From contig JAUWWQ010000032.1 of the NCBI GenBank assembly GCA_030616775.1, forward strand, positions 1-47,530: a stretch of 47,530 nucleotides of DNA. The letters run 5' to 3'. Below are positions 13,852-37,356 of the stretch, one piece after another. Origin of the DNA: Planctomycetota bacterium. GTDB taxonomy: Bacteria; Planctomycetota; Phycisphaerae; UBA1845. The notes under the pieces were generated by a model, which was not told the DNA's origin, searched no databases, and saw only the letters and a program-made list of their open reading frames with translations. How positions within the stretch are numbered: the first letter of the stretch is position 1; every line of letters begins with the position of its first letter. The translations under genes and the position numbers were made by a program.

Positions 13852-13940
13852 GAGCCGTGGGTAAGACCGGCGTTGCAGAAAGAGTTGTGTTGTCTAGACG
13901 TTCTCGAGAGGTCGAGACCTCCTTGCTTTGGAGAAGTGTG

Positions 13941-18805: not shown

Positions 18806-20405
18806 AGTCCGTCAACAAAAGAAGATTCTTTCGATCGATTGGGATGCTCGCTCGCTGCGGGTGGTGCATGCGTACTTGGGCAAGCGGGGAGTGAAAATCG
18901 ACAGGCTGTTGTCGATTGCGATTCCCTCCAATCTGGATCCCGCCAGTCCGGAGCAAATGGGACAGTACATCCGGCGCACGCTGGACCAGGAAGGTATTGC
19001 GACTAAGCATGTGATCGTCGACATCCCACGCGATCAGGCGATTCTCAACACGCTGACACTTCCCATCGCGCAGGCCGACGAGCTGCCGGGCATGGTGGAG
19101 ATTCAGATCGCCAAGGAGCTCCCTTTCCCGGCAATGGACGCGGTGATCGATTTTGCGGTGGGGCCGGCTGCGGATGATGCCCCCACGGGGGAAGTGCTGG
19201 TCGGGGCGATCCGCCGCGAGCTTCTGGAGCAATACGAGGCGACCTTTGCGGTGGCTGGTCTGAAACTGGATCGGATCGGCCTGCGGCCATATGCCAATAA
19301 GGTGGCGGTTTGCCAACTACTGAGGCATGCAATCCCTGAGCGCGTGCTGTTCATCGATGTCAGACCGACGTTCATGGAAATCGACGTCCTGCGGCAGTCG
19401 GCGCTGTCGTTTTCGCGGTCCGCATCGGTGATGATTCCGAGTGGGATCGGTGAGTCCAGGGTGTTATCGATCGGGCCTCGAGAGGAGCCGGCGGGTGCGG
19501 AGAGAGGGGAGACCGGTGCGGATGACACGCAGGCGTCATCGGGTCTTGAAGGAATCGTTCACTCGCTGGTACTGGAGGTGACCCGCTCGATCGAGGCCTA
19601 TCGCGTCGGCGATCACGGGGCAACGATCGACCATGTGGTTATCGGCGGCGACGTCGGGGTTGAGGAGGCCCTGGCGGAGGCGATCCAAAAACGATTGAAC
19701 ATAACGACGGAGATCTACAACCCGGCTTCGACGTTCGGTTGGACGCCGGACGAGGGGGCGGGCGCTTCAGCCTTTGCTGCATCGCTGGGGTTGGTGCTCG
19801 GTCACGCCCAGGACGGAAGCCTGCACTTCGATTTCCTGCATCCGAAAAGGACGGTATCAGCCACGCAAGAGCGGCTCAAGAAAGCGCCGATTGCGGCTGC
19901 AGTGGTGATCCTTTTTGCAGGGGCGGCGGCGGTCGGCTTTGCCGGCTACACGAAGGACGACCGCCAGAAGCTGGCTCAACTCGAGCAGGACATTCGTAAA
20001 CTGGAAGACCGACGCAGTGACTACAAGTGGTTGAAGTTCCTTGATGTGGCCGAGCAGATCAGGGAGTTCGACGCGAACCAGCATGTCTGGATCGACGTGA
20101 TGTACGACGTGTTCTCGCTGCTCCCCGATAATGAGGAGATGCTGGTCAATCGTGCGGAGATGAATCAGAAAGACGGCCGGATCACTTTGAAGACAAGGGT
20201 GAAGCATCGTGAGACCCCTACGGAGGTGATTCAAGCGCTCGAGAATTTCCGCCGCGAAGGGAGAGACAAGCCTCGATTCAAGGTCACCATGGGGCCGCAA
20301 ACGGAAAAGAAACGCGAGAAGTACCGCTTCTCGCAGGATCTGCGCATTGAGATTCGCGACGACGAACCGGGCAAGAGATCCTCCGGGAAGTCCTCACGCG
20401 GATGA
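18795..20405 (+). CDS. gspL: GspL-like (PilM-PilN fusion) platform protein
   Basis: It starts with GTG 18795 inside the end of gspK (11-bp overlap); no ATG fits better. The first ~345 residues are an actin-like PilM/GspL cytoplasmic domain: ILSIDWDARSLRVVHAYLGK at the nucleotide-fold start, and IDHVVIGGDVGVEEALAEAI plus ASAFAASLGLVLG at its end. One hydrophobic helix follows (about 360-377, IAAAVVILFAGAAAVGFAGY). After it comes a PilN-like periplasmic part with coiled coil (about 380-415) and a ferredoxin-like fold of about 120 residues. GspL recruits the ATPase GspE in model systems. Length (536) exceeds typical GspL (about 400), partly through a low-complexity insertion near 225-250. Confidence 0.85.
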   Translation: MYNRVRQQKKILSIDWDARSLRVVHAYLGKRGVKIDRLLSIAIPSNLDPASPEQMGQYIRRTLDQEGIATKHVIVDIPRDQAILNTLTLPIAQADELPGMVEIQIAKELPFPAMDAVIDFAVGPAADDAPTGEVLVGAIRRELLEQYEATFAVAGLKLDRIGLRPYANKVAVCQLLRHAIPERVLFIDVRPTFMEIDVLRQSALSFSRSASVMIPSGIGESRVLSIGPREEPAGAERGETGADDTQASSGLEGIVHSLVLEVTRSIEAYRVGDHGATIDHVVIGGDVGVEEALAEAIQKRLNITTEIYNPASTFGWTPDEGAGASAFAASLGLVLGHAQDGSLHFDFLHPKRTVSATQERLKKAPIAAAVVILFAGAAAVGFAGYTKDDRQKLAQLEQDIRKLEDRRSDYKWLKFLDVAEQIREFDANQHVWIDVMYDVFSLLPDNEEMLVNRAEMNQKDGRITLKTRVKHRETPTEVIQALENFRREGRDKPRFKVTMGPQTEKKREKYRFSQDLRIEIRDDEPGKRSSGKSSRG

Positions 20406-20436: not shown

Positions 20437-22026
20437 ATGGATCGACGAACGAAAATCCTGGCCGGTCTATTTGGTGCCGTGCTTGCCTACGGGCTGATTT
20501 CGAGCGTGGTCTATCCACGGTGGATTGAGCCCATGCTTCAGATCGATCAGCGCATCGCCGGCCGCCAAAAAGAGTATGACAAGCTCAAGGCACTGCAGGA
20601 CGAGGTCCGCGAGGCAAAGAAGGAATACAGGGAGTACGTCTCGCGGGTGGATTCGTTCGACATCGGCAAGGTCGCGACCGCCATCCGAGCCCAGCTAAAC
20701 GAGCTGATCGAAGAGCATAAGTTGCAGGGCGCCAACGTGTCACCCAGCCGGCCGACGGAGGATCGTAAGACCGGCCTGAAGAAAATGTCCATCACGGTGA
20801 CGGCGGTCGGCACGCTCAAGTCTGCCGTCGAGTTTTTGAAGGATGTCTCCGAGCTGCCGCAACTTCTGCGCGTGGGTAATGCAGCGATCTACCCGGCGAG
20901 CCGGTCTCGTAAGGAGCGCAGCCGCGATCGAATGAACATGCGTGTACCGATTGAGGTGCGGGTGCTGCCCAAGCAGAGAATCGTGGGACCCATAGATGAG
21001 GATGAGCTGGTTCAGCCGGAATCGTTCGTGCGCCACGCGGATCAGGATTACTCACTGATCTGGTCGATGAAGCCGTTTACGGAACCCATACCGCTTCGGG
21101 CCAACGCCGGTCGCGACGTGAACAGGAAGCAGGGTCAGTCGGCCCGGCTTAGCGCCACCGCCACCGGAGGTGACGGCGAGTATGACTACAAGTGGGACCC
21201 GGAGGAGGGACTGAGCGACGCGACGATCGCCAACCCGACGGTCGACACCTCAACGGCATTTACCCAAATCTATACAATCACCGTAGAAGATAGCAGCGGG
21301 GAGACCTCGACAGATACCGTGGCAGTCATCATCCGTGAGACGACCAGAAGGAAGCCTGCCGAGCCGGAGCCCGGGCCGGTCCAGACCACGAGCGTCGAAC
21401 GCTGGAAGGATCGCAAGTACATGCAGCTTTGCATGACACTGCTGCACACCATGGAGGCTGGGCAGGTCAGCGAGCTGATGATCTCCAACAACCGCAAGAA
21501 GCAGACGGATTATTACACGGCCGGCGACCAGTTCGACGGCGGCGAGCTGGTTTTCGTGCACCCCAGAGGGGGGGTTGTCCGTAGAAATGATGAGTACTTT
21601 CTCTATCCGATCGGCACCTGGCTCGATCAGGACATTAACCTTAACGCCGCCGCTGCCGTGGATTACCCTGATTTGAAGAAAGCGGCCGAGTGGCACCGTG
21701 AGAGTGTCAAGGCTATGTCAGAGGCGCAACAGGATGTGGCCGCGCCGCCGGCTGATGAGACCGGGAAGACCGCAGATGCGGTGCCGGCAACGGAGGAAGA
21801 TGAGAAGACAGGCGATGCAAAGCCTTCCCGGGTGGAGAAGCCCGAGGCCCGCGAGAGTGGACGGGTCGCTACCCCGGGTGCCAAGGAAGAGGAGTCTGAC
21901 AAGACCGAGGCCCGGCAGAGCGTAAAGGAAACCCGGCCTAAGCCCAGACTTAAAGACAGGAGACGGAATCTGCCTCCGGAGCCCGACAGCAAGAAGAGAC
22001 CACGGCAGGTTAGAAGGAAACGGTAG
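20437..22026 (+). CDS. gspM: GspM/PilO-like platform protein with PKD domain
   Basis: The start is ATG 20437, since the upstream extension overlaps gspL and lacks sense. A short cytoplasmic N-terminus precedes one membrane helix (about 6-25), then a coiled coil (about 35-75) and a PilO/GspM ferredoxin-like domain to about 205. Residues about 218-300 read as a PKD domain (ANAGRDVNRKQGQSARLSAT, YDYKWDPEEGLSDATIANPT, YTITVEDSSGETSTDTVAVI), unusual for GspM. Residues about 325-400 (YMQLCMTLLHTMEAGQ ... YYTAGDQFDGGELVFVHPRG) faintly resemble the homology region of GspC/PilP; this is inference. The last ~110 residues are charged and disordered. It is followed by the giant N-domain gene after 104 bp. 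Confidence 0.75.
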   Translation: MDRRTKILAGLFGAVLAYGLISSVVYPRWIEPMLQIDQRIAGRQKEYDKLKALQDEVREAKKEYREYVSRVDSFDIGKVATAIRAQLNELIEEHKLQGANVSPSRPTEDRKTGLKKMSITVTAVGTLKSAVEFLKDVSELPQLLRVGNAAIYPASRSRKERSRDRMNMRVPIEVRVLPKQRIVGPIDEDELVQPESFVRHADQDYSLIWSMKPFTEPIPLRANAGRDVNRKQGQSARLSATATGGDGEYDYKWDPEEGLSDATIANPTVDTSTAFTQIYTITVEDSSGETSTDTVAVIIRETTRRKPAEPEPGPVQTTSVERWKDRKYMQLCMTLLHTMEAGQVSELMISNNRKKQTDYYTAGDQFDGGELVFVHPRGGVVRRNDEYFLYPIGTWLDQDINLNAAAAVDYPDLKKAAEWHRESVKAMSEAQQDVAAPPADETGKTADAVPATEEDEKTGDAKPSRVEKPEARESGRVATPGAKEEESDKTEARQSVKETRPKPRLKDRRRNLPPEPDSKKRPRQVRRKR

Positions 22027-22130: not shown

Positions 22131-25100
22131 ATGATGAAACGACAACCCACCTCGAGAGGTAAGCTCGCCTGGGCAATCCTGGCCGGCTTGTTTGTGGTCG
22201 TGATCCTTGGCCCGGTGCCCACCGCGTTCGCCCAAGCCGATAAACCCAAGGAGGACGAGAAGAAACAGTCCGACGAGGAGAGCGACAAGGGGCAGGATAA
22301 GGACAAGGGCACGAGTGGAAAGATCAAGATAGATCCCGAGCTGCAGAAGAGGATCGATGAACTGCTCGAGGCACAGGAGAGTAAGAAGGCGTCAGCCAAT
22401 AGGGTGAGGTCGAGTCGAAGACAGACATCACCGAAAGGGCAAAAGCCTCCCACTTCCGTCAGACAGTCAGCGCCGCGTACGAGAGAGCTGGAACGGGGCC
22501 CGAAGTCCGCTGGTAAACATGGTCAGACGCGCGGGCCAAGCAGTACCACCACCACGCTCGACATTCCCCCGACTGAGAGTGACATACCACCTGAAGAGAG
22601 GAAATACGTCTTCAGCATCAAGGAGGGCACACATGCGCAGTTGGTGGAGGGCTTTGCCCGGCAGACCGGACTCGGTGTCATCGGTGAGGCACCGAAGGAC
22701 GGGAAGGTGACGTTTGTCAGTACCGAAGAACTGACATTCGCAGACGCCCTCCTTCGGGTACGAATGCTGCTTTTCAAGTACAAGCCCCATGACCCCTACT
22801 GGCTCGTTCGCCACGAAACGCACCTGGAGGTCATCCGGGTCACCGATTTCTACCGCATTCTCCCGCCCGAACGCATGTTCAAGACAGTCGAGGACCTGCG
22901 TGCGGCTGATCTACCTGGCGAGGAGCTGGCGTTGGTGGTGTATACGCCAAAATCGGGGTCCGTCGCCGACTTGAGAGAGGTGCGTGACTTCCTGCCGGAC
23001 TACGTGAGGGTGACCCCGCGGCCGGGTAAGAACTCGGTGTTTATTTTCGCGCTGGTCAGGCACATTGAGAAGTATCTTGGCTTGATTGATTTCTTCCTCG
23101 AGGGAGGCAGTGTCGAACCGCGCACGCTGGAACCTATCAAGCTCGAGCATATCCTTCCCAGTGTGGCCGTTACCAAGCTCGAACAGCTTATGGACATGGG
23201 CGGCGGCGGTCGGCCCCGGTCCACGGGTAGGACCCGCGGCAAGGAGACCAGCCCCCTGGAGACCATGCCGGAACCCGCGGTGACCTTGATCCCCGAAGAT
23301 GAGCAGGGGGTCCTTCTGGTGTTGGCCATGCAGGACAAGATCGAGCGAATCAAGTCTCTTCTCCCCTATATTGACGTGGACGCGCCACTGTCGGACGTCG
23401 AGCCGGTGATAATCCCTGTTAAACACGCCGACCCTGATGAACTGTTGGGCACCGTCCAGCAGATAATTGCGGCGTCTACGGGGCCGCAGCCGACCAGTAC
23501 TCCGACGAAGACAACCACGAGAAGGAGGACGACCGTCCGGACACCGACCAGGCCCGTTTCAGCCGATGGCCTTACCCTGCTGGTGCACCCGTCGCAAAGC
23601 GCGATCATCGCGATTGGCCAGGAGGAGCAGATCAAGCGGGTCCGGGAGTTGGTTGCCCAGTTTGACGTGGGGCCTGTGGGGCCGATTCGCATCCCCCTGG
23701 AGCACATTGAGGCTACGGAACTCACCACTACATTGACCCTCATAGCAGGTGGCAGGGGCCGGAAAGGCAAGCCGACGGCTGAACGCTTCAAGATAGTGCC
23801 TGATCCCGGCAACGACGCCATCTGGTTTATGGGCAGCAAGAGGGACCTGGAGAGGGTCCGTGAGTTGGTGGTGTTGCTGGACGTACCCGGCCAGGATGTC
23901 TCGCTTCGCATAGTGCGTCTGCGCAACCGGCAACCGTCTTTTGTGGCGAAGATGCTGCAGGAGTTCGAGCGCACCCCGTCGACGCAGCAGACCCCCAAAA
24001 CATCGAAGTCCAGACGGACCAGGACCTTGTCGGCTTCCAAGTTCACTCCCGACGACGAGAACAACCGCCTGTTTATCCTGTGTACCGATTCCGAGTGGGA
24101 ACAGTACGACGTGTTCATCAAGCAATTGGAGGGCTCGATTGACGAGTCGTCGCTTTTTGTCCGTGTTGCGCTTGAACACCTCGACCCGGAGACGGCCATT
24201 GATCGGTTGACCTCCATTCTGGGAGGCGCCGGCGGGCGGGCAGCGGATGTGCGCTATGCTGCGGTTGAGAAGGATCTTATTGTAATGGGCGCAACCGAAG
24301 AGCAGCTCGAGGACATCAAGCTCGTTCTTGCCGAGATTGACCGGCCCGTCGAGATGGAGCGGCGTAGTTTCGAGATTGTCCATGCCGATCCTGGTGAGAT
24401 CAGATCCGCGATTGAAGCGTTTGTGGATGGCGATGGGGGGGGGCAGCAACCGCGCCGGCGATCCCGGCCGGCTGCTAAAGGTGCGGCACCTACCCCGGCA
24501 TCGGTCTCGGCGGCACTTACGGTCATGCAGATGGGTAGCCGCCTGATCGTCGACGCGACGCCGGAGAAGATGGAAGAGGTGGCCGCGTTGATCGCCGAAC
24601 TCGACGTCGAAATGGTGACGACCGAGCTTAAGGTATATGAGGATTTTCCACCAAACACGGACATTGCGGCTGTCTCGGAAGCTCTTTCGTCGGTGTTTTC
24701 AAGCCGTGCTCCCGGAGCGAGGGCGAGAAAGCCCGGTCCGAGCGGTGCTCCAGGGGGGCCGCGGTTTATCCCTCAACCGCATCTGGGCAAACTGCTGGTC
24801 ATCGCGGAGCTGACGATGTTCCCCGAGATCGAGCGGCTTCTCGACGTGTTGCGCAGCGATGGCGAGGCGGCTCCGCGAGAATTGGCGTTCATTGATGTCG
24901 AGTTCGCCGATCCGGCTGAGCTTGTGGAGCAAATAACAGCACCTTTGGATATGAGAATCACCGAGCTTGTCTCGGAAGGCGAGCTTCCCAGAAGAGGCGA
25001 GGCGGTCGGCGGGACTGCCAGGGGGCCAAAGAGAAGACCGGGCCAACCCGTCGACGCCAGCCGACAGTATCACATTGCGCCGGATGCGGGGCATAGCCGG

Positions 25101-28100
25101 ATCGTCATGGTTGCACCCAAGATCGTCATCGAATATGCCCGGGAGATTGTAACTCAGTTCGATGTGCCCGCCGATGACGAGGAACTGATATTCAAGACCG
25201 TCAAACTGGATAACGCCAGTGCCGCGCAGATGGTTAAGGCCGTTCGGGAAGTGCTTGGCGCCCAGGGACGACCGGGAGGTCGCCCGGCGGGGAAGGGACG
25301 GCCTCAGAAGGTGGGCGCCGAGGGCAAACCTGCGCTGACTGTTGTGGAAGCTCCCGGCGGCGGAGCCGTGGTGTTGCACGGCCGTATTGAGGACATTGAG
25401 CAGGCCACCGAATGGATCGAACAGCTTGACGCAATTTCCATACCCGGTCGGATCATCCAGGTTTACGAGATTCAGCACGCGGACATCAAGACGCTGGCCG
25501 ACTTGATCATGAACGTCGTTGACCGCCCGGTGGCCCAGTCGGCGCCCGGTAAGACACCGCGACGGCGCAGGCCTGTTGAGCCCATCGAAGAGGAAATAGA
25601 GTTCGATGTCACCAAGACCTGGATCGGGCGGGAGATCTATATCCGAGCCGATTTCATCGCCAGCACGATGATCGTCGTGGCCGGCCAGGCGAAAATCGCC
25701 CAGGTCGACGACATAGTGAAGCAGTTCGACACGGCAGAAGCGGCAACCCAAAAGTCGCCGGTGCCGACGTTCATGTATGAGCTTCAGTACGCCGACGATG
25801 CTTTCGACGCGGCACTTAATCTAGAGATGGTCCTGGAGTACATGTGGGATCCGCCCGACGAACTGCCCCAGGTCGAGTCGGCATTCTTCGGCAACTACCT
25901 GATTATCAAGTACCCGCATGAAGACCGCTTCCCCGAGATCGAAGAGCTGATCCGTAAGTACGTCGACAAACCCGACGAAGGCGAATGGGTATTGAAGCGA
26001 AAGGTCCTCACCGCGCTAAAGGACCTTACCCCCACCGAACAAGCCTTGTGGATGAAGATGAATCATCCCGAGCTGGACATCGAGATCGTCGATATTTCGC
26101 CGGCCAAAGACATAAACTACGGCGTGAAGGAGTTGAAGCCGCGCGGAGAGGCCAGACCCAATCCGTGCGTACTGCCGTTAGCCTTTCAGCGGATGGCCAG
26201 CCGTCTGGCTCTGACGGCTGTAGGACAACAGAAGTCCGAGGAGACGCAAGGCTCTACACCGGCCACTAGTCCTGAAGATGATCCACAGGCAAAGTCGTCT
26301 GACGATCTTATTAACGAGGCGGTGACATCTCTGCTTGAAAAGAGCGAAGAGGAGACAGCATCGACGGCCGAAAAACCAGAGCCGGGCGACACGGATGCGG
26401 TGGGTCGCGCCACGAAAGTGATAATCAAGGTCGATGATACCACAGGCACGCTGGTCATAGAGGGGCCGGCCGGGATTATCGAGGATGTGCCCGATTGGGT
26501 GAGTGAGTTGGAAGATGAGATCAAGGGTGCTCAACTTCCGCCGGACATGCGCATCTACCAGGTTCGCTACATTGATGTGTATACGGCTGCGGAAATCCTC
26601 GAGGAGATGTTCAACGCGACCAGACAGCAGCGCCAGATGTTCCAACAACAACAGAGAACGCAGCAGCAGCGCCTGCGGCAGCAGCAATTGCAACAGCAAC
26701 GCCAGCAGCAAAGGGGTCAGCAGCCGGGACAGCAACCCGGACAACAGCCCGGGCAACCTCAAAGACCCGGGCAGCGAGGACAACAGCAACCCCAAGCAAG
26801 CATTCCACAACTTCCGCAGACGGCTGTGCGCGTCTTCCCTAATCCCCGCGACCGCAGCCTAATCCTGCGGGCGGATACCAATCAGTACCCGGCCATCCTG
26901 AAGCTCCTGGCTACAATAGACCAACCCAAGCCGATCGACAGCGAACTCAGGACCTTCAGGCTGGAAAAGCTGAACGCGGCACAGGTGGAGGAGTTCCTCA
27001 AGGAGTTTCTCAATCTCGACCAGAAGCCGCGGGCCAGCAGCGCGGGGACACCATCCAGTGGGCGGCGCACCTCCCGGACGCCGAGTCGTAGCGCCCCGAG
27101 CGGTTCCCTGCCAAAGGATATCATGGAGCAGATGGTCACTGGGCCCGACAAGCTCGGCGTGGACGCGAAGGATATCAAGCTGACCAGCAACGAGGAGGCC
27201 AACACGATCGTTGTGATGGCCCCCAAGGCGGCGCTGGACTTTATCGGTGATCTTATCAAACAGCTCGAAAGTGCGGAGATTCCCGAGCGAATCACAGAGT
27301 ACTACGAATTGAAGCACGCTGATGCTGAAGAGGTCGCGGATTATCTAGAGACCCACTACGAGGAGGAAAGTGGTTTACGTACGGGGAAGGCCGGCAAAGG
27401 AGCCGGTGGGCGACCGGCGCGAACCTTAAACACACCCAGTTTCGTACCCTACCCGCGGCTCAACCTGCTGACTGTTCTGGCCACGGCTGAGCAAATAGAA
27501 GAGATCGGTGACCTAATCCAACGTCTCGACTTGGCTGGCGAAGAGGATCAATGGGAGCACGTGACGCTCAAGCACGCAGATGCCGGGAGCGTGGCAGCCA
27601 CACTCTCGGAGATGTTCGGTGGGGCCGCCCCGCAGGGTCGCAGGCGGCAAAAGGGTGCACCGTCGGCTGCTGGTGCCGGCGCCAGGTTCATCGGCGAGGA
27701 GGGCGGGCGGATGGTGCTTTACAGCGCGCCGCAGGGTCTGCGCGAGACGATCCTCGATACGATTCAAAAGTTGGAGGTGGAAGCGGAAGACAGTTCCAAT
27801 CTGCGTATCATCGAGCTGGAGCACGCCACACCGAGCAAAGTGGCTGACGCCGTCGAGGCCGCCTACGGCAGTGGGCGCGCCGGGAAAGGGCGTGGGCGAG
27901 GCGGTGCAACAGTAAGTGGTGCTCGATTCACGATCACTCCGGACGACGCCACGAAGCGTCTGTTTGTGGTGGCCGATGATGACATGTTCGCGGAGATCGA
28001 GTCGCTGGCCAAGTCGCTCGACATGCCCGGCACCATCGACGTCGAGTTCAAGATCTTTCCCCTCCAATACGCCGATGCGCGGCAGGTTTACACGACGATG

Positions 28101-30341
28101 ACCGAGATGATGAACGCCTATATCAAGCGTCTCGGTCCGGCGGCCCGTGATATGGAGGCATTCAGCGTAGAGGTCAATGATAAGACAAACTCGCTGATCG
28201 TGCTGGGCACGCCGACCATCTTCGGATTCGTCGAGGACAGCCTGGCAAAGGTCGACACGCCCGCCAACGCGGCCAGTCCTCCGGGCTTCTTGATGGTCGT
28301 GTTGAAAAACGCCAACGCCCAGGAGGTGGCTCAGAGCGTCAACCGGCTCTGGGGCCAAAGAAAAGATGTTCAAACCGGTGTGACACCGCCGCTGGCGGAG
28401 GCAAATCGTTCGCTGAATATGTTGATCGTTCGCGGTACGCAGGACCAGCTCGATGAGATCAAGAGCGAATTCGTCGATCCGCTGGAAGAGCAGGCCCCGC
28501 GGACTCTGCTCACCGAGATTATCACACTGAAATACGCCGACGCCGAGACGGTAGCGGAATCCATCGACCGGATATTTCAAGCCAAAGCCGAGGCATCCCG
28601 GAAGCTGGGTCAGCAGGGCGTCGTCTCGCCGCTGGACTTCACTGTGGCCGTCACCGCGGATCCGAACACCGGGCAAATCATAGTCCAGGCCGGCAAGGAC
28701 AACATGGCTCTGGTCAAAACCCGTGTGGCCGAGCTTGATACGGAAGATGTCGCTGCGAGAAGCGCAATCTCGATGAAGATTTACCCGCTCAACTTTGCCG
28801 ATGCAGGTGCGGTTGCGAATATCATCAACAGTTGGGCCCGGTCGCGTACGGAGGGCGCCGGTCGCGGTCGCACGCCGGGCGCCAGCGATGCGGTCAATGC
28901 CACCGCCGAGAACGCCACGCAGACGGTGGTGGTGACGGCCAGCGAGGCCAATCATCTGATCATCCGGGAATTGATCGACGGGCTTGACGACGAGACGGTT
29001 GCGGCGCGGCAGGGTCAGCTCAAGACGTTCAATCTGAAGTTTGCCGATCCGGGTAGCGTCCAGGAGGCCATCACTCGCTTGTTCCAGAAAGGCCGCAGCC
29101 CGCGCGACCAGGTCATCGCCGTGGCGGACTATGGATCCAGCTCGGTTATCGTGTCGGCCTCGGATGGGAACCTCAAACGTGTCGAGGAACTCCTCGCCGC
29201 GCTGGATACTCAAGAGAGCGCCCAGCGCGAGGTCCACGTTGTCAGTCTCGCAAACGCCGATGCCGACGCGGTGACACGGGCGTTGACCGAGATCTTCATC
29301 CGCTCTGCACCCCGGCAGAAGGGGCCTCAGGCTCCGCCGATTTCCATCGCTGCCCTACAGGCCTCCAAGGCCGTTCTGGTGAAATGCAATGCGGAAGACT
29401 TCGCCGAAATCGAGACGGTCGTCGCTGAGCTCGACCGCGAGGAAGCCGTCCTCGGAGAAGAGGTCCGTGTAGTGCCGCTGCTGCACGCCGACGCAACCGA
29501 AGTGGAAGCGGCCATGCGGGCCTATCTGCAAAAGCCAGGTGGGCGCGGGGGCCGCGGTACGGAACTGGCGGGCGACATGCGGCTAAGCGTGTTGGCCCAG
29601 AGCAACATGTTGGTGATCAGTGGCGGCAAAGACGATGTGGACCGCATCGAGGCCAGAATACAAGAACTCGACGCGGTGAGTGAGGTAGGCAGCGTTCCGC
29701 AGATCATCAGGCTCAAACATGCCGATGTCGGACAGATCCTTCCAACCCTTCAAGAGATGTTCAGCGACAGCCCGCGCGGCGGGCGGCGCGGGCAGCCGCC
29801 GCCGGTAATCGTAGCCAGCGACGCGGGGAACTCCTTGATCGTGCGGGCCAGTCGCACCGATTTTGCCGCCATCGAATCGATCATCGAGCAGTTGGATACG
29901 GAAGAGACGGCTGGTGGCAGCAACTTCCGGCTCATTTCGGTGGCAACAGGAATCAACGTGACCGACCTGGCGGAGAAGGTCGAGGAGAGCATCAACGAGG
30001 GTGCTCGGGCGCGGGCCGGGAAGGGTCGCGGTCGGGAAGTCCCCAGTATCACCATCATGCCGGACACACGTACAAGCTCGCTCATCTTCTCGGGCGATTG
30101 GAGCCTGTTCGACCAGGCTGAAGAGTTGACGCAGGCCCTGGTGGCGATGGGACCGACCACTAAGGGTGTCAAGATCATCCCTCTCGGCAAGGTCCCTGCG
30201 GACGATATCGAGCGGCTCATCGCCCATTTGAAGGGCGAGGAGTCATCGAGCACAGGCCGCTCCAGGCGGGGCACCAGTAGCAGCCGCGACCGCGGGAGTT
30301 CGAGCCGGAGTAGTCGAAGACCGAGCCGCGGTCCTCGGTGA
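22131..30341 (+). CDS. Giant exported protein of tandem secretin-N1-like domains, no barrel
   Basis: 2736 residues, roughly 300 kDa. The N-terminus has a cleavable signal peptide (hydrophobic 12-33, AFA-Q cleavage). After a charged linker (35-150), residues about 158-245 look like an N0/STN domain. About 25 tandem units of 70-110 residues then follow. Each reads strand-'LKHADAxxVAxxLxEMF'-basic loop-'DxxxNxLIVxA'-helix-'LD', the secretin N1 fold (KH-like). Several units are broken by Gln-rich (about 1498-1558) or Arg/Gly-rich loops. The C-terminus is a basic Ser/Arg tail; there is no secretin barrel. AGGAG precedes the start. The gene lies between gspM and gspD, 47 bp before gspD, so it is very likely co-expressed. 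I infer a periplasmic scaffold or ring stack that works with the secretin. No described protein of this layout is known to me. Confidence 0.85.
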   Translation: MMKRQPTSRGKLAWAILAGLFVVVILGPVPTAFAQADKPKEDEKKQSDEESDKGQDKDKGTSGKIKIDPELQKRIDELLEAQESKKASANRVRSSRRQTSPKGQKPPTSVRQSAPRTRELERGPKSAGKHGQTRGPSSTTTTLDIPPTESDIPPEERKYVFSIKEGTHAQLVEGFARQTGLGVIGEAPKDGKVTFVSTEELTFADALLRVRMLLFKYKPHDPYWLVRHETHLEVIRVTDFYRILPPERMFKTVEDLRAADLPGEELALVVYTPKSGSVADLREVRDFLPDYVRVTPRPGKNSVFIFALVRHIEKYLGLIDFFLEGGSVEPRTLEPIKLEHILPSVAVTKLEQLMDMGGGGRPRSTGRTRGKETSPLETMPEPAVTLIPEDEQGVLLVLAMQDKIERIKSLLPYIDVDAPLSDVEPVIIPVKHADPDELLGTVQQIIAASTGPQPTSTPTKTTTRRRTTVRTPTRPVSADGLTLLVHPSQSAIIAIGQEEQIKRVRELVAQFDVGPVGPIRIPLEHIEATELTTTLTLIAGGRGRKGKPTAERFKIVPDPGNDAIWFMGSKRDLERVRELVVLLDVPGQDVSLRIVRLRNRQPSFVAKMLQEFERTPSTQQTPKTSKSRRTRTLSASKFTPDDENNRLFILCTDSEWEQYDVFIKQLEGSIDESSLFVRVALEHLDPETAIDRLTSILGGAGGRAADVRYAAVEKDLIVMGATEEQLEDIKLVLAEIDRPVEMERRSFEIVHADPGEIRSAIEAFVDGDGGGQQPRRRSRPAAKGAAPTPASVSAALTVMQMGSRLIVDATPEKMEEVAALIAELDVEMVTTELKVYEDFPPNTDIAAVSEALSSVFSSRAPGARARKPGPSGAPGGPRFIPQPHLGKLLVIAELTMFPEIERLLDVLRSDGEAAPRELAFIDVEFADPAELVEQITAPLDMRITELVSEGELPRRGEAVGGTARGPKRRPGQPVDASRQYHIAPDAGHSRIVMVAPKIVIEYAREIVTQFDVPADDEELIFKTVKLDNASAAQMVKAVREVLGAQGRPGGRPAGKGRPQKVGAEGKPALTVVEAPGGGAVVLHGRIEDIEQATEWIEQLDAISIPGRIIQVYEIQHADIKTLADLIMNVVDRPVAQSAPGKTPRRRRPVEPIEEEIEFDVTKTWIGREIYIRADFIASTMIVVAGQAKIAQVDDIVKQFDTAEAATQKSPVPTFMYELQYADDAFDAALNLEMVLEYMWDPPDELPQVESAFFGNYLIIKYPHEDRFPEIEELIRKYVDKPDEGEWVLKRKVLTALKDLTPTEQALWMKMNHPELDIEIVDISPAKDINYGVKELKPRGEARPNPCVLPLAFQRMASRLALTAVGQQKSEETQGSTPATSPEDDPQAKSSDDLINEAVTSLLEKSEEETASTAEKPEPGDTDAVGRATKVIIKVDDTTGTLVIEGPAGIIEDVPDWVSELEDEIKGAQLPPDMRIYQVRYIDVYTAAEILEEMFNATRQQRQMFQQQQRTQQQRLRQQQLQQQRQQQRGQQPGQQPGQQPGQPQRPGQRGQQQPQASIPQLPQTAVRVFPNPRDRSLILRADTNQYPAILKLLATIDQPKPIDSELRTFRLEKLNAAQVEEFLKEFLNLDQKPRASSAGTPSSGRRTSRTPSRSAPSGSLPKDIMEQMVTGPDKLGVDAKDIKLTSNEEANTIVVMAPKAALDFIGDLIKQLESAEIPERITEYYELKHADAEEVADYLETHYEEESGLRTGKAGKGAGGRPARTLNTPSFVPYPRLNLLTVLATAEQIEEIGDLIQRLDLAGEEDQWEHVTLKHADAGSVAATLSEMFGGAAPQGRRRQKGAPSAAGAGARFIGEEGGRMVLYSAPQGLRETILDTIQKLEVEAEDSSNLRIIELEHATPSKVADAVEAAYGSGRAGKGRGRGGATVSGARFTITPDDATKRLFVVADDDMFAEIESLAKSLDMPGTIDVEFKIFPLQYADARQVYTTMTEMMNAYIKRLGPAARDMEAFSVEVNDKTNSLIVLGTPTIFGFVEDSLAKVDTPANAASPPGFLMVVLKNANAQEVAQSVNRLWGQRKDVQTGVTPPLAEANRSLNMLIVRGTQDQLDEIKSEFVDPLEEQAPRTLLTEIITLKYADAETVAESIDRIFQAKAEASRKLGQQGVVSPLDFTVAVTADPNTGQIIVQAGKDNMALVKTRVAELDTEDVAARSAISMKIYPLNFADAGAVANIINSWARSRTEGAGRGRTPGASDAVNATAENATQTVVVTASEANHLIIRELIDGLDDETVAARQGQLKTFNLKFADPGSVQEAITRLFQKGRSPRDQVIAVADYGSSSVIVSASDGNLKRVEELLAALDTQESAQREVHVVSLANADADAVTRALTEIFIRSAPRQKGPQAPPISIAALQASKAVLVKCNAEDFAEIETVVAELDREEAVLGEEVRVVPLLHADATEVEAAMRAYLQKPGGRGGRGTELAGDMRLSVLAQSNMLVISGGKDDVDRIEARIQELDAVSEVGSVPQIIRLKHADVGQILPTLQEMFSDSPRGGRRGQPPPVIVASDAGNSLIVRASRTDFAAIESIIEQLDTEETAGGSNFRLISVATGINVTDLAEKVEESINEGARARAGKGRGREVPSITIMPDTRTSSLIFSGDWSLFDQAEELTQALVAMGPTTKGVKIIPLGKVPADDIERLIAHLKGEESSSTGRSRRGTSSSRDRGSSSRSSRRPSRGPR
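26620..26805 (+). repeat. Gln-rich low-complexity insertion in the giant N-domain protein
   Basis: Repeated CAG/CAA codons encode a QQQ/QQPGQ-rich stretch at residues about 1498-1558, inserted into the variable loop of one N1-like unit. Simple-sequence DNA of this kind is prone to length change. Confidence 0.8.
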
Positions 30342-30388
30342 GGAGCGCTCGGGGCAAGTGGAAGCACGGGCATGAAGAGGCGTAAGAC

Positions 30389-33300
30389 ATGTGCATGAAG
30401 CGATGGATTGACGGGACATGGTTTGGCAGGATGCGCGCTACCCTTTGCTGCGGTTTGCTTGTTGTTAGTCTACTGGTAACAGACGTCTCCGTCTTTGCGC
30501 AAAGGGCCGATGACACAGCCACGGCGGCACAAGACGAGCAAGGTGAACCGGGCAACACCGCGGTGGAGCCATCGTTGCTCTCGGACCAGGATGAAGGCAT
30601 TGTCGCACGTGAACCGGACCGCATACAGAAATTGCTCTCAAGCCTTGACCCGAGCCTGTTGAATCTGTCCGGCGCCGAGCTGGACGTGGAGATCGTAGGC
30701 GATCAGCTCATTCTTCGCGGTAACGAAGACGATCTCAAGGTCATCGAGCTTCTGGTTACGATTCTCGAACAGACCACCGAACAGAAAGAATTTCGCGTCG
30801 TAACCGTCACCGACAAAGATGCCAACGACATTGCCCGCACCATCGAACCGGCTCTTCAAAACGTGTTTTACGAACCCAACCAACGGCCCGAATATGAGCT
30901 CTCCGTTACTGCTCTGTCGTCGCGCATCCTGCTCGTATCGGCCCTCCCGAAACAGATCGACTTTATCGTCGACGTTATCAAGCAGGTGGACGAGACCGAG
31001 GATGTTGAGCTGCCGGAGCCCGAGCAGCTCGTGTTTCGGATCAAGCATCGCCGGGCCAATGATGTGGCCGAGCAGCTCAAGGAGATCATCGGCAAGATCC
31101 GCGAAAAGCAAGGGGCTACCGGGGCCAAGGGCGAACTGCAGATCATCGCCAATGACGCCAACAACAGCATCATGGTTCTGGCTCCGGAGTCGGAGCGCCA
31201 GAAGATCCAACGATTACTGGACGAAATCGACGTCGAGCCGGTCAAGGGTTGGGGCGAGGTCAAGCTCACATTGTTTCCGCTTCTGCATTCAAAGGCGAAT
31301 GAACTGGCCAGTGTGATCAAGGACTTACTGACCACGAAGAAGGATCGCGAAGCGGCGGAGGAGATGATCTACCGTCTCCTGGTCAGCAAAGCACTTCCAT
31401 CCGGCGAGATTGTCGATCTCGCGCCGATCGACCTGCAAAAGCCGACGCGTATCCTCCCCGACGAAGGCACCAACAGCCTGATTGTGGCTACGGTCGAGGA
31501 GAATATCGGTCCGCTGGGCGAGCTGATTCGCCTGCTCGATGGCGTGCCCATGGCCGAGGACGTCGGCGTCAGGCTCTTTCCGCTCCAATACGCGGACGTC
31601 GAGAAGGTCGCCAGTCTGCTAAAGGAGGTGTTTGACGCCGGCGAGAAGCTGACCCAGGACCCCGACGGGAGCGGACAGGGCGCCGTCCCGGATAGTGTCA
31701 TCGGGCAGGCCCTGGTGTACCCCGTGCATATCTCCGCGGACGCCCGCAGCAACACGCTGGTCGTTTCAGGCCGACAGGAGCATCTGGTCCTTGTAGCACA
31801 GATGATCGGTGAGCTGGATCGACCGGCCGCGGCGCAGAAAGAGCTTCGCGTGGTCACCGTCACCCAGCGGGACGCCGGCGAGATTGCCAGCACCGTCGAG
31901 GAGGTGCTGAACAATGTCTACTTCGAACCCGAGCGGCGATCTGAGTACGAGGTCTCGGTAACCGCACTGTCGTCGAACATCGTGCTTGTCTCGGCCCTTC
32001 CCCGGCACATTGAAGTCGCGGCCGACTTGGTCAGACAGGTGGATTCGATTGAGGAAGCGCTGCCCCGGCCGGAACAGATCGTGTTTACGATCAAGTATCG
32101 CAAGGCCAGCAAGGTCGCCGAGCAGCTCGAGGAAATCGTCACCAAGTTGCGCGAGAAGCAGGGTGCCAAAGGCGATATTCAGATCATCCCCAACGACGCC
32201 AGCAACACCATCATGGTTCTCGCTCCCCCGTCCGACCGGGAGAAGGTTCAGGCCTTGTTGAACGGGCTCGATGTCGAGCCGGTCAAGGGTTGGGGCGAAG
32301 TGACGTTGACGCTGTTCCCGCTCATCCATTCCAAGGCCGGCGAGTTGGCGGACACCATCGAGGAGTTGCTGACCTCCGAGGAGGATGCTGACGCCGCTGA
32401 AGAGGTGATTTACCGGCTGCAGATCAGCCAGGCGCTGCCTACCGGCGAGCGAATCAAACTTCCGCCGATCGACCTTCAAAAACCGACCCGTATTCTCCCC
32501 GATGAGGGGACCAACAGCCTGATCGTGGCCACGGTGGAGGAGAACGTCGGCCCGATTGGTGAGCTGATCCGGCTGCTGGACGGAGTGCCGATGGCTGAAG
32601 AGGTTGGTGTCAAGTTCTTCCCGCTACGGTTCGCCGATGCGGAGTCGGTTTCGGATACGCTGCGAGAGATGTTCGATGAAGGGAAGAAACTGCCCGAGGA
32701 CCCGGACGGAAGCGGGGCTGACGCCGTCCCGGAAGGAGTCATGGGCCGGGCCATAGTGTACAACATCGGCCTAACCACCGACGTGCGGACCAACACGTTG
32801 ATCGTCACCGGCCGGGAGGAGCAGTTGGCGCTCATCGAGATGATCGTCAGTGAGCTGGACCGGCCGGCCACGGCGCTGAAATTCCCGCTTCGGCTTATCC
32901 AACTGGATCACACCGATGCTTCGCAGATCGGGAAGCTCATAACGGAACTGTTGGATCAGCGGTTCGAGGCCCTCGAGGCAACCGGTGCCGGAGGGGCGGC
33001 CATCGAGCGCGAACGGGTCTTTATGAGCGTGGACCTTCGCACCAATTCGTTGATCATCTCGGCCTCGGAAGAAAACTACGAAGAAGTCCTGAGTATTGCC
33101 CGGCAGCTCGACACTAAACCAGCCCGACTCTTCGACCAGATTCGGATCATCAACTGCCAACGTCTGTCAGCGGCGGACTTGAAGGAAAAGATTGACGAGC
33201 TGTGGCAGCGGAAGGCTGAGCTTCGCCGTGAGGAGGAGTTGCTCGAGGACCTTCCGGTCGTCGTTGTGGATGAGCGAAGCAACGCGCTGATCATTGCATC

Positions 33301-35917
33301 CAGCGTCGAGGACTACGAGGAGATCCAGCGTCTCATCGAGACGCTGGAGACCCAGCCGCTTATCGACGATACCAGGCTTTTCAAGCTCGAGTATGCGGAT
33401 GCCGCCGTTTTGGCCAGTATGCTTGATGAGCTATTCCAGGGAATGGCCAGTCAGTCGGAGGCCTTCGAAGCCCCAACCATTATGCCCGACCCGCGCAGCA
33501 ACGCGCTTATCATAGCCGCGACCCAGGACGGGATGGAACGGGCGGAAGAACTGATAAAACGGTTGGACGTAGAGGCGGGTCCGCTAACAGCCGTCTTCGA
33601 GGTTTACCTGCTTGCCCACGCCTCAGCCTCCCAGCTCGCCCCGCGCATACAGGAACTGTTCGACGCCCGGGGTGAAGGCCAGGAAATCTCGCGTACGCCG
33701 ATCGTGATTCTCGCGGAAGAGACCTCCAACAGCCTGGTCTGCAGCGCATCGCGGGACGACCACGAGATCATCGTGGATCTGCTGGGTCTTTTGGACCGGC
33801 CTTCGAACATAGCCCGGCAGTTTGAGATATTCCCTCTGAAAAGCGCCAAGGCCCCGACCGTGGCGGATAAGCTTGAAAGCCTCTTTAAGTCCCAGGCGGA
33901 CGGGGCGAGCGGGCGGGCCGACGCGATCGCAGCAGAGGCCGATGAGCGGACCAACTCGATCATCGTGTGGGCTTCGCCGTCTCAGATGATGAACATCGCG
34001 GAGGTCATCAGGCGCCTGGACACCTCGGCGCCCGCAGTGGAAATGATGGTCAAGGTGATCCAGTTAAGGCAGGCCCTGGCCCAGGACTTCGCCGATCTGC
34101 TCCAGCGTACCGTCGTCGGCGAGAACACCGGTGGCGACGATGAACGGGCGGTGATTGTGTCCTTCCTTGAAAAGCAGCCGGACGGTTCGGAAACACTGCG
34201 CAAGCTGCTGCGTCAGGACATCAAGATAGAGGCCGACCCGCGCACCAACTCTTTGATGGTCATGGCCCCTTCCGACAGCATCGACATGCTGGAGGCCATG
34301 ATCCGCGATTTCGACACCATCCGCCCGATCCGGTCGGAGATTCGTATGTTCCCGCTGGTCAACAGCGACTCCGAAGCGATGGTCGATCAGCTCACGGAAC
34401 TGTTCGAGGCTGAGGGTGGCGACGGCGAAACCCAAAGTCAGCTCGTCTTCGGCGATACTCTAGGCGAGTTCGATATTGCCAGTGTGGGGCAAGACCTCCG
34501 CTTCGCAGCCGATACCCGGACGAACACCCTGATTGCGGCCGGGGCGGAGGTGGACCTTCGCATGGTCGAGGAAATGGTTCGCTATCTAGACTCGCAGGAG
34601 GCCGAGAATCGTGTCACGGCGGTTTACCCGGCGAGTTACCGCTCCGCACAGGATCTGGCCAGCGCGATTCAGGGCTTCAACCAGCAAGAGCAGAATGTGC
34701 TGGGTGAGGTGGATGACGAGGAGGCCAGGACGCGGATTATGGAGCGACAGGTCTCGGTCGAGGCCGTCGGCGATGAGGACGAGGGCAGCAGCAGTCTGAT
34801 CATCGGGACCAGCCGGCGCATGTATCAGGATACCATGGATATGGTCCGGGAGCTGGATCGCCCCGAGCCTCAGGTCATGATCTCGGTCCTGATCGCCGAG
34901 GTCACACTGACCGACAGCCTGGAGTTCGGTATCGAGTTCGCCGGCCAGAACCTGCATTTCTCGGAAGAGGCGATTGTGGGGCCCAACGGCATCATTCAGG
35001 GCAGCGACTTTGACTGGGTGGCGGGCACCCAGCTTGGTGCCGCCGGCAGCGGTCTCGGGTTTGGCTTCACGTTTAATGGGGAGGATTTCAGCTTCCTGCT
35101 CCACGCCCTCCAGCAGGACAGCCGGCTCGAGGTCCTATCGCGGCCGATCCTGATGGTTCGAAACGGTGAGGAGGGCAGTATCACGATTGCCGATAGGGTG
35201 CCTTTCGTCGCTATTGCCGGTTTGAGTGACACCGGTCAGACACAGTCACAGGTGAACTATGAGGATGTCGGCATCGTGCTCACTACCACACCGCACATCA
35301 GTCCCGACGGCTATGTGACCATCGAACTGACCCAGGAGATATCGAGCTTCAGCGGCGAGAATATTCAGCTTACCGAAGGCGTATCCTCGCCAATGTTCTC
35401 GACGCGGGAGGTTGACACGAACGTCACGGTGCGCGACGGTGAGACTGTGGTCATCGGCGGGTTGATCACTTCCCGGCGGTCGGAAGGTGAAAGTAAGGTT
35501 CCGATCTTGGGTGATCTTCCGCTGATCGGGGCATTGTTCCGGTCGATGAGCACATCGGAGCAGAAGACGGAGCTGCTCATTGCCATGACGGTCGACGTAG
35601 TGCGCACCCACGAGGACGTACGTCAAGTGTCGATCGAGCAGCGTGACAAGTACATCGAATCACGCAAGCTTTATCATCATCCATTGCTTGAGGGTCTGCG
35701 CATATTGCCGGATGAGTCCTTGCTGGGCCCGGCGGAAGGGCCTCCTGCGGAGCCCGGGCAAAAGCCCGAGTCGCCACCTGACGAACGTCGCTTGTACGGC
35801 CCGAAGCCCAAGACATATGGTCCTGCCATCCGCCGTCCGAGACCGACAAGTACGACCGAGCGAGCCGTGTACGGGCCAATAGTCGCGCGTAGCGAGGCCA
35901 TGTCGGGCAGCGAATGA
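30389..35917 (+). CDS. gspD: Giant T2SS secretin GspD with about 16 N1-like domains
   Basis: The outer-membrane channel of the T2SS, 1842 residues versus about 650-750 in model GspD. It has a signal peptide (cleavage VFA-Q near 38), an acidic linker and a half N-domain (about 95-130). About 16 tandem N1-like units follow to about residue 1494; model GspD has N0 plus three. The secretin barrel domain spans about 1496-1740. It includes VLSRPILMVRNGEEGSI, VPFVAIAGL, VNYEDVGIVLTTTPHIS, VRDGETVVIGGLI and VPILGDLPLIGALF, all canonical. The last 100 residues are Pro-rich with three YGP motifs. Units 1-4 and 5-8 are copies of each other. The stop overlaps the next start (ATGA). The start could also be ATG 30395. 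Confidence 0.93.
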   Translation: MCMKRWIDGTWFGRMRATLCCGLLVVSLLVTDVSVFAQRADDTATAAQDEQGEPGNTAVEPSLLSDQDEGIVAREPDRIQKLLSSLDPSLLNLSGAELDVEIVGDQLILRGNEDDLKVIELLVTILEQTTEQKEFRVVTVTDKDANDIARTIEPALQNVFYEPNQRPEYELSVTALSSRILLVSALPKQIDFIVDVIKQVDETEDVELPEPEQLVFRIKHRRANDVAEQLKEIIGKIREKQGATGAKGELQIIANDANNSIMVLAPESERQKIQRLLDEIDVEPVKGWGEVKLTLFPLLHSKANELASVIKDLLTTKKDREAAEEMIYRLLVSKALPSGEIVDLAPIDLQKPTRILPDEGTNSLIVATVEENIGPLGELIRLLDGVPMAEDVGVRLFPLQYADVEKVASLLKEVFDAGEKLTQDPDGSGQGAVPDSVIGQALVYPVHISADARSNTLVVSGRQEHLVLVAQMIGELDRPAAAQKELRVVTVTQRDAGEIASTVEEVLNNVYFEPERRSEYEVSVTALSSNIVLVSALPRHIEVAADLVRQVDSIEEALPRPEQIVFTIKYRKASKVAEQLEEIVTKLREKQGAKGDIQIIPNDASNTIMVLAPPSDREKVQALLNGLDVEPVKGWGEVTLTLFPLIHSKAGELADTIEELLTSEEDADAAEEVIYRLQISQALPTGERIKLPPIDLQKPTRILPDEGTNSLIVATVEENVGPIGELIRLLDGVPMAEEVGVKFFPLRFADAESVSDTLREMFDEGKKLPEDPDGSGADAVPEGVMGRAIVYNIGLTTDVRTNTLIVTGREEQLALIEMIVSELDRPATALKFPLRLIQLDHTDASQIGKLITELLDQRFEALEATGAGGAAIERERVFMSVDLRTNSLIISASEENYEEVLSIARQLDTKPARLFDQIRIINCQRLSAADLKEKIDELWQRKAELRREEELLEDLPVVVVDERSNALIIASSVEDYEEIQRLIETLETQPLIDDTRLFKLEYADAAVLASMLDELFQGMASQSEAFEAPTIMPDPRSNALIIAATQDGMERAEELIKRLDVEAGPLTAVFEVYLLAHASASQLAPRIQELFDARGEGQEISRTPIVILAEETSNSLVCSASRDDHEIIVDLLGLLDRPSNIARQFEIFPLKSAKAPTVADKLESLFKSQADGASGRADAIAAEADERTNSIIVWASPSQMMNIAEVIRRLDTSAPAVEMMVKVIQLRQALAQDFADLLQRTVVGENTGGDDERAVIVSFLEKQPDGSETLRKLLRQDIKIEADPRTNSLMVMAPSDSIDMLEAMIRDFDTIRPIRSEIRMFPLVNSDSEAMVDQLTELFEAEGGDGETQSQLVFGDTLGEFDIASVGQDLRFAADTRTNTLIAAGAEVDLRMVEEMVRYLDSQEAENRVTAVYPASYRSAQDLASAIQGFNQQEQNVLGEVDDEEARTRIMERQVSVEAVGDEDEGSSSLIIGTSRRMYQDTMDMVRELDRPEPQVMISVLIAEVTLTDSLEFGIEFAGQNLHFSEEAIVGPNGIIQGSDFDWVAGTQLGAAGSGLGFGFTFNGEDFSFLLHALQQDSRLEVLSRPILMVRNGEEGSITIADRVPFVAIAGLSDTGQTQSQVNYEDVGIVLTTTPHISPDGYVTIELTQEISSFSGENIQLTEGVSSPMFSTREVDTNVTVRDGETVVIGGLITSRRSEGESKVPILGDLPLIGALFRSMSTSEQKTELLIAMTVDVVRTHEDVRQVSIEQRDKYIESRKLYHHPLLEGLRILPDESLLGPAEGPPAEPGQKPESPPDERRLYGPKPKTYGPAIRRPRPTSTTERAVYGPIVARSEAMSGSE
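30785..31837 (+). repeat. First copy of a 1.05-kb tandem duplication in gspD
   Basis: Encodes four N1-like units (351 residues) that are repeated in the next 1041 bp. Shared landmarks include EYELSVTALSS/EYEVSVTALSS, LDxxDVEPVKGWGEV and IDLQKPTRILPDEGTNSLIV. Both copies begin at the same codon phase (KEFRVVTVT / KELRVVTVT). Confidence 0.85.
31838..32878 (+). repeat. Second copy of the 1.05-kb tandem duplication in gspD
   Basis: 347 residues corresponding unit by unit to 30785-31837, head-to-tail. Divergence is spread evenly except for the almost identical segment around PTRILPDEGTNSLIVATVEE, which may be under selection or gene conversion. Confidence 0.85.
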
Positions 35918-36522: not shown

Positions 36523-37356
36523 GTGGGTATCCGCGTCCCGGCGCGCCGGGAAAGCCTGCGGCTCGGTAAGATTGGAACCAAGGGATTGCACCGTTCGAGT
36601 CATGTCGCGTATCTGCGTGGTACGCCCGGGCTCCGGGGCTTCCGGCGTATCGGCGGTTCAGTTGCTCATAAGGCTGCGCTGTTCTGCGGCCTCGCAGTCT
36701 TGGTCCAACTCGGAACATCGTGTGATCGCGCGGAGAGTGGAACCGGCGATTTCGACAAATCGTTGCGCGGCCAAGCTGCCCCAGAGGCATCTTCTGACGA
36801 GCTCTTGTCACCGATCGAAACTGTCCGGCGCGTGCATCAATATCGTCTGGCCGGTCAGCTCGGGCGCATCAGGCCCTATCTTACGCCCGATCAGCGATTT
36901 GCGGTCGTTGAGCTGATCCAGGCGGTTGACCGGCTGGCGTGGGCAAACGAGGCTCTACAGGCGGCTGTCACCAAGCACATTGGCCGCGCCTCGGCCAGCG
37001 CCTTTGACCGGTCGCAGGTTGCCAACATCATCGGTGTGTTCTCCAAGGATGTGGAAGCCATCGCCGAACGGGTCGAGGGCGACAGAGCCGTAGTTACCAT
37101 CCAGGTGGGCAGACGGGTACCGCTCGACGAAGTTGATCTGATTCGCCACGAAGGCCGTTGGTTGATTCAAACGGACACGCCGATTCCCGGCGTGGCAGCG
37201 GAGCTTCGAAAACTGGCGGATGTCTTCATTGACGCAACTCGTCGGCTCGAGAAAGAGCGGCTGACGGCAATCCAGCTTGCCCGAGAGATCGAGGCTCGGG
37301 AAGCCGCCATCGGGCGGCGCTTGGCAGCGCTCACGCAACAGGACAAAGGCCCGTGA
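36523..37356 (+). CDS. Probable lipoprotein of unknown function
   Basis: The C-terminal 210 residues are clearly coding: a hydrophobic stretch ending in LGTSC (AALFCGLAVLVQLGTSC, near residues 51-67), a likely lipobox, followed by a helical globular domain. The domain contains SPIETVRRVHQYRLAGQLGR and later AVVTIQVGRRVPLDEVDLIR HEGRWLI, a pattern seen in small periplasmic DUF4878/NTF2-like folds. A long C-terminal coiled helix (about 230-275) follows. The annotated GTG start gives an unusually long 50-residue leader that contains one of the palindromes (36536-36551). The true start may be downstream at a TTG, or the 5' end may have been altered by that insertion. It follows the gspD-linked lipoprotein by 45 bp and may belong to the same operon. 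Confidence 0.65.
   Translation: MGIRVPARRESLRLGKIGTKGLHRSSHVAYLRGTPGLRGFRRIGGSVAHKAALFCGLAVLVQLGTSCDRAESGTGDFDKSLRGQAAPEASSDELLSPIETVRRVHQYRLAGQLGRIRPYLTPDQRFAVVELIQAVDRLAWANEALQAAVTKHIGRASASAFDRSQVANIIGVFSKDVEAIAERVEGDRAVVTIQVGRRVPLDEVDLIRHEGRWLIQTDTPIPGVAAELRKLADVFIDATRRLEKERLTAIQLAREIEAREAAIGRRLAALTQQDKGP
36536..36551. repeat. 16-bp perfect palindrome TCCCGGCGCGCCGGGA
   Basis: It is identical to the palindrome at 47133-47148 and belongs to the TCCCG/CGGGA family. It lies at the doubtful 5' end of the second lipoprotein frame. Confidence 0.6.

Follow-up and report, generated by a model that had tools for sequence, protein, structure and literature searches.

Results and Discussion

The T2SS operon and its two giant genes

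The stretch of DNA analysed here, referred to as the window, comprises 47,530 nucleotides of contig JAUWWQ010000032.1 (assembly GCA_030616775.1) from a Planctomycetota bacterium of the Phycisphaerae (UBA1845). It carries an operon for a type II secretion system (T2SS), which includes the following genes:

12652..13851, + strand: gspF (PF00482)
13857..14402, + strand: gspG, major pseudopilin (PF08334)
14558..15370, + strand: gspH-like pseudopilin with the prepilin motif RRAFTLLEV (sequence; weak N_methyl match)
15367..16119, + strand: gspI-like pseudopilin (position, N-terminal motif, conserved order)
16116..17147, + strand: gspJ-like pseudopilin (position, N-terminal motif, conserved order)
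17144..18805, + strand: gspK (PF21687, PF03934; sequence)
18795..20405, + strand: gspL-like gene, PilM domain followed by a transmembrane segment and a PilN-like region (PF11104, PilM_2; sequence)
20437..22026, + strand: gspM/PilO-like gene with a C-terminal GspC-HR-like domain, here M/C (weak PilO match, E 0.012)

GspF, GspG and GspK were thus identified by Pfam and GspL by PilM_2 together with its transmembrane and PilN-like part; GspM was identified weakly, and H, I and J only by their prepilin-like N-termini and position. The likely start of gspK is a GTG at 17144 within a mechanical open reading frame (ORF) that begins at 16991. For the C-terminus of the M/C protein a profile search gave GspC as the single match in the PDB up to E 10, at E 0.11, a specific but weak match. 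The HR-like region has no Pfam match, and there is no separate gspC gene. Between its PilO-like and HR-like parts the M/C protein contains a variable insert, which in the window is PKD-like; relatives have another insert or none.

These genes are followed by two exceptionally long ones and by two small ones:

22131..30341, + strand: gene A (proposed gspD1), putative inner-membrane-side half of a giant secretin, 2736 aa
30389..35917, + strand: gene B (proposed gspD2), putative outer-membrane-side half of a giant secretin, 1842 aa
35914..36477, + strand: lipoprotein gene with the lipobox IAGC, which overlaps the end of B and encodes a candidate pilotin or assembly factor
36523..37356, + strand: second small, probably exported protein, present in part of the relatives with two separate giant genes

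A and B lie on the same strand with a gap of 47 bp, and each protein begins with its own N-terminal signal-peptide-like stretch. The original prediction, made from the DNA letters and their ORFs, had described two adjacent, co-directional exported proteins of 2736 and 1842 residues in a T2SS operon. Both ORFs lie exactly where it had placed them, and the operon assignment is borne out by the T2SSF, T2SSG, GspK, PilM-type L and pseudopilin genes directly upstream. In relatives the gene order F-G-H-I-J-K-L-MC-D-lipoprotein is conserved; in nearly every relative of the order the secretin gene is followed by a homologue of the lipoprotein gene whose product has a lipobox, or a Cys behind a hydrophobic stretch. 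GspE is encoded outside the window. Several ATPases of the GspE/PilB type are encoded elsewhere in the same genome, and in the relatives G035 and G040 GspE lies directly upstream of gspF.

Upstream of the operon the window encodes a protein with LysM domains (9004-10023). LysM proteins such as TsaP associate with secretins. A further gene (10639-11241), located just upstream of a cytidylate kinase gene and the T2SS operon, encodes a small protein with an excisionase-type helix-turn-helix and a response-regulator receiver domain.

Domain content and predicted fold

Both giant proteins consist mainly of ring-building N1-type domains (Pfam Secretin_N, PF03958; E 6.8e-169 for A, 5e-156 for B). The secretin pore domain (PF00263) was found by Pfam in B and is absent from A:

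23136..30134, + strand: array of 25 Secretin_N-type units in A, residues 336-2668
30794..34861, + strand: array of 16 Secretin_N-type units in B, residues 136-1491
35105..35605, + strand: secretin pore domain PF00263 of B, residues 1573-1739 (Pfam E 4.3e-47)

Units were counted with a profile built from the repeats themselves at a threshold of >10 bits, giving 41 in total. Two weak, probable N units of 6.6-8.9 bits lie in divergent stretches of A (residues 244-335 and 1205-1300) for which Pfam reports no match, and one further unit is divided between A and B (see below), in good agreement with the number of about 40 predicted originally. Known secretins possess one to five N1-type rings, three to six ring domains in all being usual. 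Together A and B comprise 4578 aa, i.e. 299 + 203 kDa per protomer. The genome contains 34 Secretin_N matches, nearly all of them within A and B, and three other secretin C-domains are located elsewhere in it.

The units were also expected to adopt the N1/KH-like fold, and this is what structure prediction returned. AlphaFold2 (AF2) models of A 2126-2736 (pLDDT 67.7) and B 835-1842 (pLDDT 57.9) consist of repeated E-H-E-E-H units, and the best Foldseek matches of both models are T2SS secretins (E 7.1e-9 for A, 1.2e-23 for B). The models are monomers from shallow alignments with a pTM of 0.29-0.30, at which the placement of the units relative to each other is not reliable. The models were used for the fold of the units, which is good, and not for ring geometry. 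That the N units would stack as rings we infer from homology to known secretins.

N0 and pore are found in different proteins

Neither of the two proteins resembles a complete secretin. In the sequence of the window itself Pfam detects no N0 domain; the N0 of A was found only with a profile:

22584..22871, + strand: N0 domain of A, residues about 152-247, the sole N0 of the pair (profile match)

A profile of 16 homologous N-termini matches the N0 of GspD/XcpQ in the PDB (E 9e-6), and three of the 16 members are matched by Pfam type_II_gspD_N0 as well. On A the profile scores 121.7 bits (E 2.4e-38). Among the giant proteins examined it matches once in every A and in every complete fused N-terminus (see below), and in no B. 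The pore is located in B or in the fused C-terminus and never in A in the complete systems examined, each of which has one N0 and one pore. G037, whose N-terminus lies off its contig, stands outside this comparison. The pair as a whole therefore has an N-terminal N0 and a C-terminal pore, B alone lacking the N0. Since the N0 is found only in A and the pore only in B, neither is a complete secretin and the pair together is one; the sequences thus suggest that A and B are the two halves of one GspD-type secretin divided into two genes.

Fused relatives and a single fission

Single ORFs that combine both parts take the place of A and B in the operon of families f4 and f8 of the order, and the class contains further families with this arrangement; f3 has the fused form, too, on a truncated contig. 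Their lengths are 4144-4881 aa in the order and 3575-4897 aa in families f9, f12, f15 and f16. Three further fused ORFs, read without their gene neighbours, comprise 4060, 4080 and 6169 aa. Overall, the fused giants of 3575-6169 aa contain an N0, 34-61 N units and a pore. The longest (L098, G329:C18:5500-25499), a single ORF of 6169 aa with an N0, 61 N units and a pore, is the largest secretin we found. Of 120 genomes sampled across the class, about 31 carry a pore-bearing open frame longer than 2300 aa, the split ones not included. The relatives were surveyed within the Planctomycetota; in about 20 related genomes either the pair or the fused form adjoins gsp genes. A lack of the pair beside gsp genes in relatives had been named as a refuting outcome of the original prediction, and this outcome did not occur.

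In a tree built from F, K, L and the secretin C-terminus all split genomes (families f1, f2, f5 and f6) form one clade with a support of 0.96, and the fused forms lie outside of it. This indicates one fission from a fused ancestor. The split state was found in ten genomes of four families; G048 was left out of this count because its halves lie on separate contig ends. In one genome (G036, L043) the secretin is split a second time, resulting in three co-directional genes with a signal peptide each. Every split product keeps its own signal-peptide-like start.

Another class of the phylum provided an isolated case. Here (G193, L097; 4158-12227 of the reversed sequence, reverse strand) a 2690-aa A-like protein contains an N0 and about 30 compact N-type matches and ends in a half unit. 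It has neither a pore domain nor adjoining T2SS genes; a pore partner, if any, is encoded elsewhere.

An N domain is cut at the junction

At the junction of A and B one N unit appears to be divided between the two proteins:

30171..30275, + strand: first half of the split N unit (beta1-alpha1), located at the C-terminus of A; a Ser/Arg-rich tail follows
30689..30766, + strand: second half of the split N unit (beta2-beta3-alpha2), located close to the N-terminus of mature B

The half in A is located past the last full unit and matches positions 1-34 of the unit profile; the half in B precedes the first full unit and matches positions 44-69. For either match 1 of 300 shuffled sequences was as good. 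Complementary half-domains were detected at ten of the eleven junctions, and at one junction of G036 there is only the head half. Most halves score better than nearly all of 300 shuffles, the weakest (the head in G040 and the first junction in G036) do not. When tail and head are joined, they match a full-length unit in only some genomes, clearly in G035, G036, G040 and G052 and nearly so in G055. The joined halves of the window do not score as a single continuous unit (4.6 bits, with 4 of 300 shuffles as good), although each half does match. We regard the separate half-matches as the sounder evidence.

In the fused relatives of the order both halves are present with 133-336 residues between them, mostly Pro/Ala-rich and of low complexity. 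It is at the position of this loop that the stop and the new signal peptide of the split clade are found. The retention of both halves suggests that they still complete one domain and thereby clasp A to B. Among ring-forming machines a split within a domain that leaves both halves in place is rare, and A and B would be such a case.

Growth of the arrays and loop charge

The N-terminal half of the array in B contains two similar blocks:

30794..31822, + strand: first copy of a 4-unit tandem block in B (units 1-4)
31847..32863, + strand: second copy of the 4-unit block in B (units 5-8)

The copies share 64% identity at the amino acid and 70% at the nucleotide level. In G018 and G033, both near relatives, B has 12 units compared to 16 in the window. 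From the block copies and the differing numbers the arrays appear to grow by block duplication, and the lineage offers a natural experiment in which secretin length is set by the duplication of domain blocks.

The variable part of the N units is the loop between alpha1 and beta2. The net charge of these loops is +70 in A (strongly basic) and -26 in B, and A has long low-complexity loops of up to 69 residues. Loops are positive in the units on the inner-membrane side and neutral to negative in the last about 12, whereas the cores are acidic throughout. In split and fused forms alike, nearly all genomes of the order show a fall in loop charge towards the outer membrane, G037 being an exception; the fall is small in G038 and weak in the outgroups.

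A proposed two-piece secretin channel

Taken together, the operon probably encodes a T2SS whose periplasmic channel is hugely lengthened and made of two pieces, with A and B as one divided secretin joined via the shared split domain. Both halves would be exported by Sec. B would oligomerise in the outer membrane, perhaps aided by the lipoprotein encoded next, and A would join it end-on, its last beta-alpha and the first beta-beta-alpha of B forming one N domain. About 12-15 copies of each chain might stack to a tube of about 43-45 rings. At the inner-membrane platform the GspC-HR-like domain of the M/C protein would receive the inner end of the tube (N0). The GspE encoded elsewhere would drive the pseudopilus (G-K), which would work inside or below the tube and push folded cargo out.

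The original prediction had left the choice between a lengthened channel and a channel with a separate sleeve or scaffold. It had not covered the N0 in A, its lack in B, the orthologues in fused form or the domain divided at the junction, and the recognition of A and B as putative halves of one secretin is new. In the second version B alone would form a channel, still a very long one, and A would be a separate periplasmic sleeve, tether or scaffold of the same domains, placed e.g. around the pseudopilus or linked to peptidoglycan. A and B are indeed separate exported chains in the window, their different loop charges might mark different surroundings, and the lone A-like protein of G193 has no T2SS neighbours. 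However, the single-chain orthologues run from N0 through about 40 N units to the pore; with a single N0 and the domains of A placed N-terminal to those of B in one chain, they argue for A as the inner-membrane-side part of that same chain and not a sleeve. B on its own would lack the N0 carried by all secretins studied so far (PMC10550240). Furthermore, the fission cuts one domain in two, and the charge polarity is found along fused chains as well. The lengthened channel is thus the part of the original prediction which stands, and we consider a separate A rather unlikely.

A different objection concerns the stacking itself. The extra N units might not all form rings; the usual channel could be built by the last few units alone, and much of the array could be a flexible or folded-back chain that binds cargo, the pseudopilus or peptidoglycan. 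Known secretins, once isolated, often show poor order in the N units close to the inner membrane (PMC6882859, PMC10550240), the loops in A are long and of low complexity, and the AF2 domain arrangement is not confident. On the other hand, most units are connected by short regular linkers as in known stacked secretins, docking at the inner membrane is implied by the position of the N0 at the far end, and many families of the class keep dozens of units, which fits a needed length. A largely flexible array therefore appears improbable. That the two genes are a sequencing or assembly artefact, i.e. a frameshift in a gene fused as in other families of the order, is extremely improbable and was rejected, since ten genomes from four families within a single clade share the split and both halves have a start and a signal peptide of their own.

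With 2.5-4 nm per ring, a value taken from known secretins, the two-piece channel would perhaps be about 100-180 nm long if the rings stack as in known channels, which is an extrapolation. By the same kind of extrapolation 15 copies of each chain would amount to about 7.5 MDa. In its most far-reaching form the proposal is a trans-periplasmic tube of about 45 rings (60 and more in relatives), over 100 nm long and of several MDa, consisting of two polypeptides clasped by the split domain and lined by lumen loops that form a cargo-guiding electrostatic gradient. This full picture is tentative, and we hold it to be somewhat less probable than not. If the loops face the lumen, the gradient would run from basic loops over the inner two thirds to neutral or acidic ones near the outer membrane. 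Such a tube would be the longest secretin-type channel known. We know of no pseudopilus of matching length, which raises the question how a pseudopilus could work through so long a channel.

Comparison with known secretins

In GspD, PulD and XcpQ, as in A and B together, an N0 at the inner end is followed by beta-alpha-beta-beta-alpha units and the PF00263 pore, and the gene is accompanied by gspF-K and L. These proteins also gave the best Foldseek and N0-profile matches. They differ in having three N units in one polypeptide compared to about 43 in two. With four rings, bound HR domains included, PulD extends about 20 nm into the periplasm (PMC6882859). The fused giants of the same order and class (G042, G050, G329) show the same domain order as the pair and, where examined, the same neighbourhood, but are single ORFs with up to 61 N units and 6169 aa.

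PilQ of Thermus thermophilus (757 aa) is 350 A long and has six N rings (N0-N5), which was called an unusual number; its extra rings are said to span most of a wide periplasm (PMC5745081). Its N1-N5 show the same E-H-E-E-H order as the units of the giant secretins (PMC5745081). However, PilQ belongs to a type IV pilus system and is encoded by one gene, whereas A and B belong to a T2SS and are encoded by two. A domain of the HR type was proposed to bridge platform and secretin N0 (HR of GspC, PilW of Thermus), and the Thermus pilW gene between pilO and pilQ occupies the place of the M/C gene here (PMC13039148). In the present operon the HR-like domain is instead fused to a GspM/PilO-like protein, the sequence match being weak (E 0.11). 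Our searches of the open-licence literature, planctomycetes included, yielded neither a secretin with dozens of N domains nor a split one.

The planctomycete envelope is little understood, and the giant secretins make a concrete prediction about it: dozens of N rings in many families of a planctomycete class would give very long periplasmic tubes, visible by cryo-electron tomography (cryo-ET). In Planctopirus limnophila, a different planctomycete, surface pits were described at sites where inner membrane and wall come close to each other (PMC5394234). These pits do not by themselves support a channel spanning an unusually wide periplasm, the role suggested in the original prediction; as they are located where the inner membrane is near the wall, a long tube might hold the membranes either apart or together.
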